A stretch of DNA of 64,000 nt, taken from Paenibacillus ginsengihumi DSM 21568 (GTDB lineage Bacteria; Bacillota; Bacilli; Paenibacillales; NBRC-103111). This document shows positions 33,833 through 59,360 of the stretch, in pieces. The stretch lies in the NCBI RefSeq assembly GCF_000380965.1, contig NZ_KB905553.1, positions 78,102-142,101 on the forward strand. Reading direction: 5' to 3'. Below the pieces are notes generated by a model. It was not told the DNA's origin and made no database searches. It worked only from the letters and a program-made list of their open reading frames with translations. Position numbers and translations under genes: made by a program. The first letter of the stretch is position 1; every line of letters begins with the position of its first letter.

Positions 33833-33863
33833 ATCGTCTCGCGAATAGCTGGATGGTTGGGAA

Positions 33864-34075
33864 GGAACTCCGTATTAGTCGCCTATAATCACTATCCCGT
33901 TCGCTCAGACAAGGGAGTCGAATCCTTTTTGACCGCGCCTATAGCCACTATCCCGTTCGGTCAGACAAGGGAACGAACTCCGTATTGGTCGTCTATAGTC
34001 ACTATCCCGTTCGGTCAGACAAGGAATCGAACTTCATACTCGTCGCCAATGATCACGATCCCCGTCATTTCGCTT
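33864..34075 (+). repeat. 54-56-bp tandem repeat, about 3.5 copies
   Basis: The core CTATARYCACTATCCCGTTC begins at 33883, 33939 and 33993, each followed by GGTCAGACAAGG-type sequence and CGAACTCCGTATT. A decayed fourth copy follows near 34047. Copies differ by small indels. Confidence 0.9.
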
Positions 34076-34737
34076 GGTTCCAGTCCACATGCTTCTAGAG
34101 CACTCTCCCATTTGCTCAGATGACATTTTAGCAACTGGACATATAGATATATGCAACGCCCACGACGAGTAGGACGATCCTAAAATAACGTTTGAAGCCG
34201 GCAACTGCGAGCTGTCGACACTATAGAATGCCAGCGCCGTTATTATGGATCTGTGTCCTAAAATTCATCTTTTTTTCGTTAATCAATAATTTTCAGAAGC
34301 GAGCTGAGTGATGGAGGGAGCCGCTCGGGTCATGAGCCGGGGGCGGCATGTTCCGCTAATCGGCTGGCTAGTTATTGCCGGACAGCGTCATCAAGCTCGG
34401 TTTTCTGAGTTAAGGGGATAGTGATTATATGAACGAGACAGGGATAGAGTCGGCAGGAGCATGAAGGGGGAGGTGGTTTTTATAAAAAAAAGCACAAAAA
34501 GGAAAAATAAGGAATGATAAACAGAGGATCAGATAAAGAAACAACCAAGGGGAACTAAGTGCAAAAAGAAAAAACCGGAAGACCCGGGAATAACAATTAA
34601 GGGCCCAAAATAAAACGGAAGAACCCGGAAGGACCAAGAAATCGCCCCCTACGTGGCAAATTAACCGTTCTAGCCTGCTCCCGCACCGTATAGTTTATTA
34701 TTGAACGTTTTGCGGTTGTTTCTGTTGAATGGAAACC

Positions 34738-34783
34738 AGGGAGGTGGGCCTGCTTTCCCTCGCGGGGAAACAGGGGAAGATTG
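34738..34783 (+). promoter_or_regulatory. Structured translation start of the first CorC gene: SD, hairpin, TTG
   Basis: Strong Shine-Dalgarno AGGGAGGTGGG (34738-34748), then a hairpin (CCTGCTTTCCC at 34749 with GGGGAAACAGG at 34764), then GGAAGA and the TTG start at 34781. The SD is about 33 bases from the start in linear sequence but close if the hairpin forms. GGGGAAG just before TTG could also serve as a weak SD here. Confidence 0.55.
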
Positions 34784-36133
34784 GGAATAGATCCGGTTCC
34801 ACTGCTGACGAACGTCGGACTGGCGACAGGTCTTTTGCTGCTTAGCGGCTTTTTCGTTGCGGCTGAATACGCCATCATGCGGCTGCGCGGCGGCCGGTTT
34901 GATCCTTCGTCGCTGAAAAAAGAGGGGCGCCGCGCCGCGTTCGCGCGGTCGATTGCTTCCAATCCGGAGGCGTACCAGTCAGCCTGCCGGCTCGGCTGCG
35001 CGCTGTCGGCGATGGGGCTCGGCTGGTTCGGAGCGCAAACCGCTGCCGGGCTGCTCGCTCTGCTGCTTGAACCGCTTCCGCTGCCCGGGTCCGCTGTTCG
35101 GGCCGTTTCTTGGATTGCTGCGGTCGCTTTGACCGCTGTTTTGCTGCTAGCTGTCGGTAGTCAGCTGCCCAAAGCCTACGCAATGCGCAAATCGGAGCAG
35201 GTCGCGAACTTGTCGACCGGTCCGCTCATTTTCTTTTACCGATCGATGTCTCCGGTTATTTGGCTGGCCGACAGGCTGTCCGGCATGCTGTTTCGTTTAA
35301 CCGGTCTTGAAGTGGGAGCGGAACCCATCTACGCGCATACGGAGGATGAGCTTCGCGGGCTCGTCAAGGCGTCGAACCGGAGCGGTTTGATCGACAATAC
35401 GGAAATGGCGCTCGTCGACAGCATTTTCGAATTTTCCGGGACGACCGCCCGGGAAATCATGATTCCTCGTACGGAAATGATCTGTTTATACACGCAGCTG
35501 TCGTTCGAGAAGAACAAGTCGATCGCGGTAGAAGAAATGCACACCCGTTACCCCGTATGCGATCCGGACAAGGACAACATTATCGGCTTTGTGCACATCA
35601 AGGATCTGCTCAGAACGGACGAAGGCATCGACGATATCCGCAAGGTCGTTCGGGCGATCACCAAGGTGCCGGAATCGATGCAGATCAGCGCGCTGCTCAA
35701 GCTGATGCAGAAAAAGAAGATGCAGATGGCTCTGCTCATCGATGAATATGGAGGTACATCGGGGCTCGTGACGTTCGAGGATATTATCGAACAAATCGTC
35801 GGCGAGGTTCAGGACGAATTTGACGAGGAGAGGCCGCAAATCGAACGGCTGGCCGATGGCTCGCATTCCATTGACGGGCGCCTATTGATCGAGGAGGTCA
35901 ACAGCTATTTCGGGCTCGCCATCGCCTCCGACGATTACGATACGATCGGCGGCTGGATTTATTCCCAGGTCGACATTCCGCCGCAAAAAAATCAGTGTAT
36001 TGTCTATGACGACGCCCACGAATTCGTCATCGACGAGACGGACCATCTGCGCGTGACCCGCATCGTCGTGCGGAAACGTAAAGCGTTGGGGGAGGCCGAA
36101 GACGCCGGCGGAATGGGGAATGAGACGTACTGA
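34781..36133 (+). CDS. HlyC/CorC (CNNM-type) family transporter, paralogue 1
   Basis: 450 residues. CorC/CNNM proteins are membrane proteins linked to Mg2+ or Co2+ export. DUF21 membrane domain (about 1-190; LLLLSGFFVAAEYAIMRLR, QLPKAYAMRKSE), a CBS pair (about 205-335; TAREIMIPRTEM, TRYPVCDPDKDNIIGFVHIKDLL, LIDEYGGTSGLVTFEDIIEQIVGE), and the CorC_HlyC domain (YDTIGGWIYSQ, HLRVTRIVVRKRK). The TTG start at 34781 gives MGIDPVPLLTNVGL, parallel to the TTG start of the paralogue at 58017. The DUF21 part is more diverged between paralogues than the CBS part. Confidence 0.88.
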   Translation: MGIDPVPLLTNVGLATGLLLLSGFFVAAEYAIMRLRGGRFDPSSLKKEGRRAAFARSIASNPEAYQSACRLGCALSAMGLGWFGAQTAAGLLALLLEPLPLPGSAVRAVSWIAAVALTAVLLLAVGSQLPKAYAMRKSEQVANLSTGPLIFFYRSMSPVIWLADRLSGMLFRLTGLEVGAEPIYAHTEDELRGLVKASNRSGLIDNTEMALVDSIFEFSGTTAREIMIPRTEMICLYTQLSFEKNKSIAVEEMHTRYPVCDPDKDNIIGFVHIKDLLRTDEGIDDIRKVVRAITKVPESMQISALLKLMQKKKMQMALLIDEYGGTSGLVTFEDIIEQIVGEVQDEFDEERPQIERLADGSHSIDGRLLIEEVNSYFGLAIASDDYDTIGGWIYSQVDIPPQKNQCIVYDDAHEFVIDETDHLRVTRIVVRKRKALGEAEDAGGMGNETY

Positions 36134-57719: not shown

Positions 57720-57976
57720 AGTCATACCTCCGCGATGATTGGGATATATACTATTGTATTCTTTTGTATACACCAATTCAAGCTATTCAGCAAAAAAAAT
57801 GATATCCGTTCAATATTCGCCGAAATTTCAAAAAATTCCGATTCTTGTCGACTGAGCCGGCCAAAAGCTTCGTTTAGATCGGAAATAGACCATGAGATCC
57901 GGCTTCAACATCTCAATTCCTATCGTATATAATTAAAGATACCTTAATATTTTACAGTCTGAAATTTTATGTCTCG

Positions 57977-58019
57977 AGGAGGTGGGGCCCGTCTGCCGCG
58001 AGGAGACGGGCGTTGCTTG
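57977..58019 (+). promoter_or_regulatory. Structured translation start of the second CorC gene: SD, hairpin, TTG
   Basis: AGGAGGTGG (57977-57985), then a perfect 8-bp hairpin GCCCGTCT (57987-57994) with AGACGGGC (58004-58011), then GTTGC and TTG at 58017. No other SD lies between the hairpin and TTG, so the SD must act across the hairpin if TTG is the start. Confidence 0.65.
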
Positions 58020-59360
58020 AGTGATCCTTTACCGCTAGTGCTGAACGTCGTTTTGATTTTAGCGTTAGTGCTGCTGAACGGTTTTTTTGTAGCGGCGGAA
58101 TTCGCGCTTGTGAAAGTGCGCAACAGCCGGCTGGAAACGCTTGCCCAGGAAGGCCACCGGATGGCGAAGCTGGCCCGGGCGGTGACCGGAAATTTGAACG
58201 CCTACTTGTCGGCCTGCCAGCTCGGCATTACTTTGGCTTCGCTCGGACTCGGATGGGTCGGCGAGCCGGCGATCGCCGATATGCTGAAGCCGCTGTTCGC
58301 GAAGATGGGGCTTGGCGAAGTGTACCTTCATTCGGTGTCCTTCGTCATCGCGTTTACCTTGATCACGTCGCTGCACATTACGCTGGGAGAGCAGTTTCCC
58401 AAAACGTACGCCATACGCAAATCGGAACCGGTCACTCTGTGGTCTGCCGTTCCGCTGCTCGTGTTCTATAAGGTGATGTACCCGTTCATCTGGTTTTTGA
58501 ACGGCGTCTCCAACTGGATGCTGCGCAAGAGCGGCGTCGAGCCGACGAACGAGCACGAGTCCGCGCATACGGAGGAAGAAATACGGCTGATGGTGAAGGA
58601 AAGCCACGAGAGCGGATATATCGATCAGACAGAGATGGCGCTCGTCGACAGCATTTTCGAATTCACCGAGACGATTGCCCGCGAAATTATGATCCCTCGC
58701 ACGGAGATGGAATGTTTGTATGCCCAGCAGCCTTATGCCGACAATATGGAGATCGCCCTGAAAGGCATGCGGACGCGTTATCCCGTCTGCGATCCGGACA
58801 AGGACAACATTATCGGCTTCGTGCACATCAAGGATTTGCTGAAGCCGCGCGAGATGCCGGGCGGCGACACTTTGCGCAGCCTCATCAGGCCGATCATCAA
58901 GGTGCCCGAATCGATGCAGATCAGCCAGCTGCTCAAGCTGATGCAGAAGCGGAAAATACAGATGGCGCTGCTGATCGACGAATACGGCGGCACTTCCGGG
59001 CTGGTGACGCTGGAGGATATTTTGGAGGAAATCGTCGGGGAGATTCACGACGAATTCGACCAGGAACGGCCCCTCATCGAGAAGAAGGACGAGTTGACGT
59101 ATTCCATTGACGGCCGAATGCTGATCGAGGACGTGAACGCCCGGTTCGGACTCGATATCGAGACGCCGGATTATGATACGATCGGCGGCTGGGTGTACGC
59201 GCAGGTCGAGATGCCGCCGCGCAAGCACCAGAAGGTCAGCTACAACGGGCTGTACGATTTCGTCATCGAGGAGACCGAGCATATGCGGATATCCCGCATT
59301 TTGGTCCGCAAGGCGCTGCAGGCGCCGGACTCCAGCTCCAATATCGAAACGGCCGTATAA
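58017..59360 (+). CDS. HlyC/CorC (CNNM-type) family transporter, paralogue 2
   Basis: 447 residues from TTG 58017 (SDPLPLVLNVVLILALVLLNG). Same architecture as the gene at 34781: DUF21 membrane domain, two CBS domains (AREIMIPRTEMECL, IGFVHIKDLLKP, LIDEYGGTSGLVTLEDILEEIVGEIHDEFD), CorC_HlyC (YDTIGGWVYAQVEM). An in-frame ATG at 57969 would add 16 residues but has no ribosome site. The CBS part is highly similar between the paralogues, including RYPVCDPDKDNIIGFVHI. Confidence 0.9.
   Translation: MSDPLPLVLNVVLILALVLLNGFFVAAEFALVKVRNSRLETLAQEGHRMAKLARAVTGNLNAYLSACQLGITLASLGLGWVGEPAIADMLKPLFAKMGLGEVYLHSVSFVIAFTLITSLHITLGEQFPKTYAIRKSEPVTLWSAVPLLVFYKVMYPFIWFLNGVSNWMLRKSGVEPTNEHESAHTEEEIRLMVKESHESGYIDQTEMALVDSIFEFTETIAREIMIPRTEMECLYAQQPYADNMEIALKGMRTRYPVCDPDKDNIIGFVHIKDLLKPREMPGGDTLRSLIRPIIKVPESMQISQLLKLMQKRKIQMALLIDEYGGTSGLVTLEDILEEIVGEIHDEFDQERPLIEKKDELTYSIDGRMLIEDVNARFGLDIETPDYDTIGGWVYAQVEMPPRKHQKVSYNGLYDFVIEETEHMRISRILVRKALQAPDSSSNIETAV

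Follow-up and report, generated by a model that had tools for sequence, protein, structure and literature searches.

A hairpin between a distant Shine-Dalgarno sequence and a TTG start codon: a candidate bridged ribosome-binding site of CNNM/CorC genes

How does a ribosome start at a TTG codon when the strong Shine-Dalgarno (SD) sequence of the gene lies 34 nucleotides away? The question is raised by a locus in the window, the whole stretch of 64,000 nucleotides of Paenibacillus ginsengihumi DSM 21568 DNA that we analysed (the promoter, SD sequences, hairpins and two CorC genes that we describe in it are all on the plus strand). The SD, AGGAGGTGG, occupies positions 57977-57985 and is followed by a hairpin at 57987-58011 and by the TTG (58017-58019) of a gene of 447 codons plus stop (58017-59360), encoding a CNNM/CBS/CorC_HlyC protein of the MpfA/CorC type (PF01595, PF00571, PF03471). 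MpfA of Staphylococcus aureus, YhdP of Bacillus subtilis, CorC and CorB have the same domain order, CNNM, CBS, CorC_HlyC. By analogy with such relatives, from which the Mg2+ function is known (PMC6711546), the product is probably an MpfA-like Mg2+ exporter.

The stem consists of 8 perfect base pairs, GCCCGTCT (57987-57994) with AGACGGGC (58004-58011), closing a loop of 9 nt (57995-58003) within which RNAfold adds two further pairs. Of 200 shuffles of the 50-nt SD-to-start stretch only one folds at least as well (z -2.87), and collapsing the hairpin shortens the SD-start distance to about 9-10 nt (9 nt in the count used below). A predicted sigma-A-like promoter (TCAACA, 17 nt, TATAAT; 57905-57933), identified only by a 10/12 match to the consensus, would place the start of the leader such that it is probably ~75 nt long, with the hairpin as its main structure. 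A search of this leader for an intrinsic terminator (GC stem plus U run) detected no terminator-like site. The initial annotation had recorded the SD, the perfect hairpin, the TTG and the CNNM/CorC gene correctly, and was mistaken in stating that nothing else SD-like follows the SD: GAGGAG at 58000-58005, spanning loop and 3' arm, lies 11 nt 5' of the TTG. The predicted anti-SD pairing of the distal SD is -16.3 kcal/mol versus -8.8 kcal/mol for this proximal GAGGAG, which is not conserved in relatives and, with the hairpin open, could act only as a mediocre SD.

The window holds a second gene of this kind, a paralogous CNNM/CBS/CorC_HlyC gene with a TTG start (34781-36133). SD, stem and TTG are all present in the same order as at 58017: the distal SD AGGGAGGTGGG at 34738-34748, and at 34749-34774 a bulged stem of 11 bp (CCTG/CAGG, a bulged C, TTTCCCT/GGGGAAA). 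Taken on its own this hairpin has a folding energy typical of its shuffles (z about 0), which could be read as a sign that each hairpin is a chance product of a GC-rich leader. We examined orthologues from 98 genomes of the bacterium's own GTDB family and read their upstream regions. Nearly all display one layout, GGAGGTG, 2 nt, a hairpin, 4-8 nt and TTG, with a GGAGGTG core that is nearly invariant. A covariance model, R1, was built from 63 orthologue elements including both window elements, so the scores of these two are not independent; this holds for the 39.2 bits of the match at 34737-34783, the 34781 element being a training member. R1 found the element in 90/98 family genomes, and its matches there sit at CorC genes, by coordinates or by translation. 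In most of the family genomes without it no close orthologue exists (best E values of about 1e-134 to 1e-147), and one, G001, has an orthologue (L078) with an ordinary SD. Over the whole order the element is present in 223 of 298 genomes and 27 of 48 genera.

To follow the stem, we aligned 69 sequences with MAFFT on sequence only (alignment A1) and scored the 7 basal pairs. The counts of covariation come from A1 and a newly made MAFFT alignment; A2, in which the 3' arm is misplaced in some rows, was left out. Standard pairs make up 94.4% of the basal-pair cells of A1, the covariation score exceeds that of all 500 of 500 shuffles, and both score and percentage paired collapse once the 3' arm is displaced by 1-3 columns. 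Parsimony on an 82-taxon protein tree gave 15 double compensatory changes, 24 single changes that keep the pair and 7 breaks, all 7 of them at the seventh pair from the base, the innermost counted. This conservation, together with the compensatory changes, indicates that the stem structure is kept by selection. The conjecture of the initial annotation that the different stem of the paralogue reflects covariation was right, both elements belonging to one covarying family. Conservation in most genomes of the order, covariation and the fixed geometry described next stand against a single chance hairpin, a reading that is already refuted and has practically no probability left.

The same alignments bear on the nature of the repeat. 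A near-perfect inverted repeat 3' of a promoter-like site might be a transcription-factor operator that came to lie between SD and start by accident. G.U pairs are frequent, however, occurring at pairs 4, 5 and 6 in 13, 10 and 10 of the 82 taxa; they are not expected of a DNA palindrome and point to RNA. The sequence of the arms is also freely variable, whereas the location with respect to SD and start does not change, and we consider a DNA operator very improbable.

Geometry provided the clearest regularity. Measured from GGAGG to the start, 109 distinct elements have a linear distance of 40.1 +/- 5.9 nt (33-71). Excluding the hairpin reduces this to 10.2 +/- 1.5 nt (6-14, mode 10), against a standard deviation of 5.8 (minimum 4.5) for the collapsed distances of shuffled spacers. 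Every one of the 109 spacers folds as a single hairpin, at a mean of -16.8 kcal/mol versus -7.0 kcal/mol for shuffled ones, and the hairpin is predicted to be formed with a median pair probability of 0.97. The start is TTG in 99 of the 109 elements and, in addition, in most hairpin-less homologues, so that weak initiation seems to be a trait of the gene. As to ATG 57969, an alternative start considered in the initial annotation, no SD lies 5' of it, and 49 of the 109 relatives carry an in-frame stop between SD and start; translation in these cannot begin upstream. Relatives retain both the stem and the TTG, the two features whose absence in orthologues the initial annotation had named as evidence against its idea.

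Anatomy, covariation, the fixed collapsed distance, conservation of the TTG and gene specificity are observed directly in the element, and we assign a probability of roughly 0.8 to the reading in which the hairpin places the strong distal SD close enough to act on a weak start codon. In such a bridged ribosome-binding site (RBS) the tail of 16S rRNA would pair with the strong, extended SD at 57977-57985, and the folded hairpin at 57987-58011 would be kept out of the mRNA path, removing about 25 nt. TTG 58017 would then lie 9-10 nt from the SD, within reach of the P site. Were the hairpin absent, that distance would be 34 nt, and initiation would depend on a weak codon together with a proximal SD of poor quality. 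We infer from the sequences both that translation needs the folded hairpin and why the hairpin is retained: the bridge would hold translation of the exporter at a moderate, structure-dependent level, an excess of Mg2+ exporter being probably harmful. Tight limits on the translation of a CNNM exporter are plausible, since in S. aureus a GUG to AUG change of the mpfB start is by itself sufficient to relieve the Mg2+ sensitivity of an mpfA deletion, thereby compensating for the missing mpfA, and overexpression of mpfA retards growth (PMC6711546).

Bridged sites are known from phage T4, where a hairpin between an SD too distant from the start and the start itself likewise shortens the gap, from 22 to 5 nt in gene 38 and from 27 to 11 nt in gene 25; initiation drops when the structure is destabilised, and the structure is conserved in close relatives (PMC3014915). 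As judged from sequence, the 58017 element has every testable feature of the T4 type: a linear distance out of range (34 nt here, 33-71 nt in relatives), a collapsed distance of 9 nt (mean 10.2) and a conserved structure. In contrast to the T4 examples, which are phage genes with AUG starts, it precedes a cellular gene of the Mg2+-exporter type with a TTG start, and its counterparts have stems of unrelated sequence in 13 bacterial families and spans of up to 77 nt. In the split RBS of E. coli thrS a hairpin lies 5' of the SD, separating the SD from a single-stranded ribosome-binding region, and is used by ThrRS for repression. Common to thrS and the proposed bridge is a hairpin accommodated by the 30S subunit without unfolding (PMC3936740), but here it is placed between SD and start. 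No bridging hairpin was found reported for the leaders of MpfA, YhdP, CorC or CorB, or for this gene, in the part of the open literature covered.

The relation between hairpin and spacing extends beyond the order, where R1 matches and orthologues repeat the layout although their stems are unrelated (examples are CTATTTAC/GTAAATAG, CTGTCATTC/GAGTGACAG, TTCCTTAGCG/CGCTAAGGAA and GCCCTTCCCC/GGGGAAGGGC). In 24 representatives, chosen by eye from upstream sequences and drawn from 13 GTDB families (the bacterium's own, f1, with f2, f11, f13, f16, f21, f23, f30, f31, f34, f35, f37 and f46), linear distances of 26-77 nt collapse to 10.7 +/- 1.2 nt; the 6-bp stems of two loci, L284 and L286, could be due to chance. 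About half of the distant homologues fetched have no hairpin, as is the case within the family for L072, L078 and L096, and nine hairpin-less orthologues measured have an SD-start distance of 9.6 +/- 1.5 nt. The agreement of this spacing with the collapsed distance suggests that the SD is either near the start or brought near it by a hairpin. Bridging of the SD-start distance, one part of the interpretation in the initial annotation, is thus strongly supported by a collapsed distance that stays constant while the linear one varies, by the covarying stem and by the normal SD spacing of stemless orthologues.

The hairpin might instead lower translation, by hiding a working proximal AGG(G/A) in its 3' arm, and leave to the distal SD the role of a standby site only. 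Such a weak proximal SD is often carried by the 3' arm and in many Paenibacillus-type elements lies a few nucleotides 5' of the TTG, and the basal CCT/AGG pairs are nearly invariant in elements of this type. The stem base in the window, however, is GCCC/GGGC, and those of other families are CTATTT/AAATAG, CTGTC/GACAG and TTCCTTAG/CTAAGGAA, with a proximal AGG that is absent or poor. Distal pairing is also far stronger in relatives (mean -15.9 versus -8.8 kcal/mol), and a standby site has no need of a fixed collapsed distance. We regard masking as improbable. A different form of occlusion, sequestration of the SD by the loop, was considered as a general mechanism on account of CACCTC in Paenibacillus-type loops, which is complementary to GAGGTG, and rejected: conservation of the loop does not extend to other elements, and in the ensemble the SD pairs with the hairpin at a mean of only 2%. 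Against the bridge itself speak the proximal AGG(G/A), the lack of a hairpin in about half of the distant homologues, and partial pairing of the SD core in short-context folds (mean probability 0.57), with partners that vary among relatives. A search for a conserved outer helix of the SD with the first codons found none, the partners differing from one relative to the next.

The other part of that interpretation was that the hairpin responds to a ligand such as Mg2+. In its general form a switch would have Mg2+, temperature, a helicase or a protein shift the hairpin between a folded, bridged ON state and an open OFF state. In its favour, the gene family has a link to Mg2+ export, and in S. aureus a mutant of the RNA helicase cshB overexpresses mpfA mRNA (PMC6711546). 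The M-box (RF00380), likewise the leader of a Mg2+-transport gene and present in B. subtilis, was not detected in the bacterium's own genome, while the controls scored, so that Mg2+ control there must come from elsewhere. The M-box has a large conserved aptamer, however, and none is found at the 58017 locus or in this genome; Rfam gave no match at the locus at gathering or relaxed thresholds. Loop and stem sequences vary across families, which leaves no aptamer or binding motif. Stabilities range from about -8.5 to -42 kcal/mol, unlike a tuned melting point, and the hairpin is predicted to be folded essentially always. The feature of RNA thermometers such as ROSE and fourU, an SD buried in a melting stem, is likewise absent, the SD lying outside the conserved stem in all elements. 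We consider such a switch unlikely on the whole, and a simple ligand switch is unlikely given the lack of aptamer-like conservation, Rfam match and M-box and the untuned stability, but a response by way of the ribosome or a helicase may exist; a Mg2+ response of the hairpin, as the initial annotation had it, is possible but unsupported. A class-wide variant, in which initiation occurs only with the hairpin folded and Mg2+ sets its frequency directly, via the 30S subunit or via a helicase, we hold to be distinctly unlikely; if it were true, the exporter would be made at high Mg2+ by a regulator defined by geometry alone, without a conserved aptamer.

A gene-blind scan for the commonest form of the element defined its association with CorC. 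This DNA pattern had 62 matches over 84,980 species, all in entries titled Paenibacillus, Cohnella or Paenibacillaceae bacterium. BLASTP places sixty of them directly 5' of a CorC-family frame, and the two others are identical to L029 and L047, elements that both precede CorC; the start codons, where read, are TTG with one GTG. By these matches the element is confined to a single CNNM/CorC (MpfA-like) subfamily. Weak R1 matches elsewhere in the own genome (E 0.2-9) show no recognisable hairpin-bridged start and were judged chance SD-like stretches; a class-level match, G566/L237 (E 6e-4), is not at a CorC gene and was likewise judged to be chance. A crude scan for other bridged genes over about 460 kb and 773 ORFs returned 61 candidates; most of these are internal or shadow starts, and 58017 itself is overlooked because of the internal GAGGAG.

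Bridged sites have so far been described mainly in phage T4, as curiosities. Here one cellular gene subfamily in many families of Bacilli combines free stem sequence, fixed geometry and, nearly always, a weak start. If the hairpin acts as a bridge, the set would amount to an experiment by nature in how SD-start distance is gauged three-dimensionally by the 30S subunit, and would open to testing the way in which the dosage of the Mg2+ exporter is limited; gene finders and RBS calculators that rely on linear spacing will place such starts wrongly or score them too low.

We also noticed several minor features of these loci. In G012:C1 the orthologue L030, just before the frame ISSDPLP, reads GGGAATATTATTAGTAGTGACCC and has no TTG, GTG or ATG at the usual place; its start may be ATT, as in infC. 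L031, L036, L045 and L047 read TTGATG, an in-frame ATG directly following the TTG, which forms a double start at the usual distance. L066 and L070 (G004:C1:1829650-1830900) belong to divergent CorC genes ~1 kb apart, with a bridging hairpin at each. Upstream of the second CorC gene of the window, 34440-34640 is purine-rich, low-complexity intergenic DNA with many AAAGA and GGAA runs, and a short frame at 33857-34123, between an AAA-ATPase gene and that CorC gene, has PFGQTR-like repeated units and is probably a small tandem repeat. Finally, the early CorC codons (in the window, for example, GAC CCG TTA CC within 58020-58040) are very uniform, with Leu encoded by TTA in 97 of 111 relatives, a uniformity that perhaps exceeds what protein identity alone demands.
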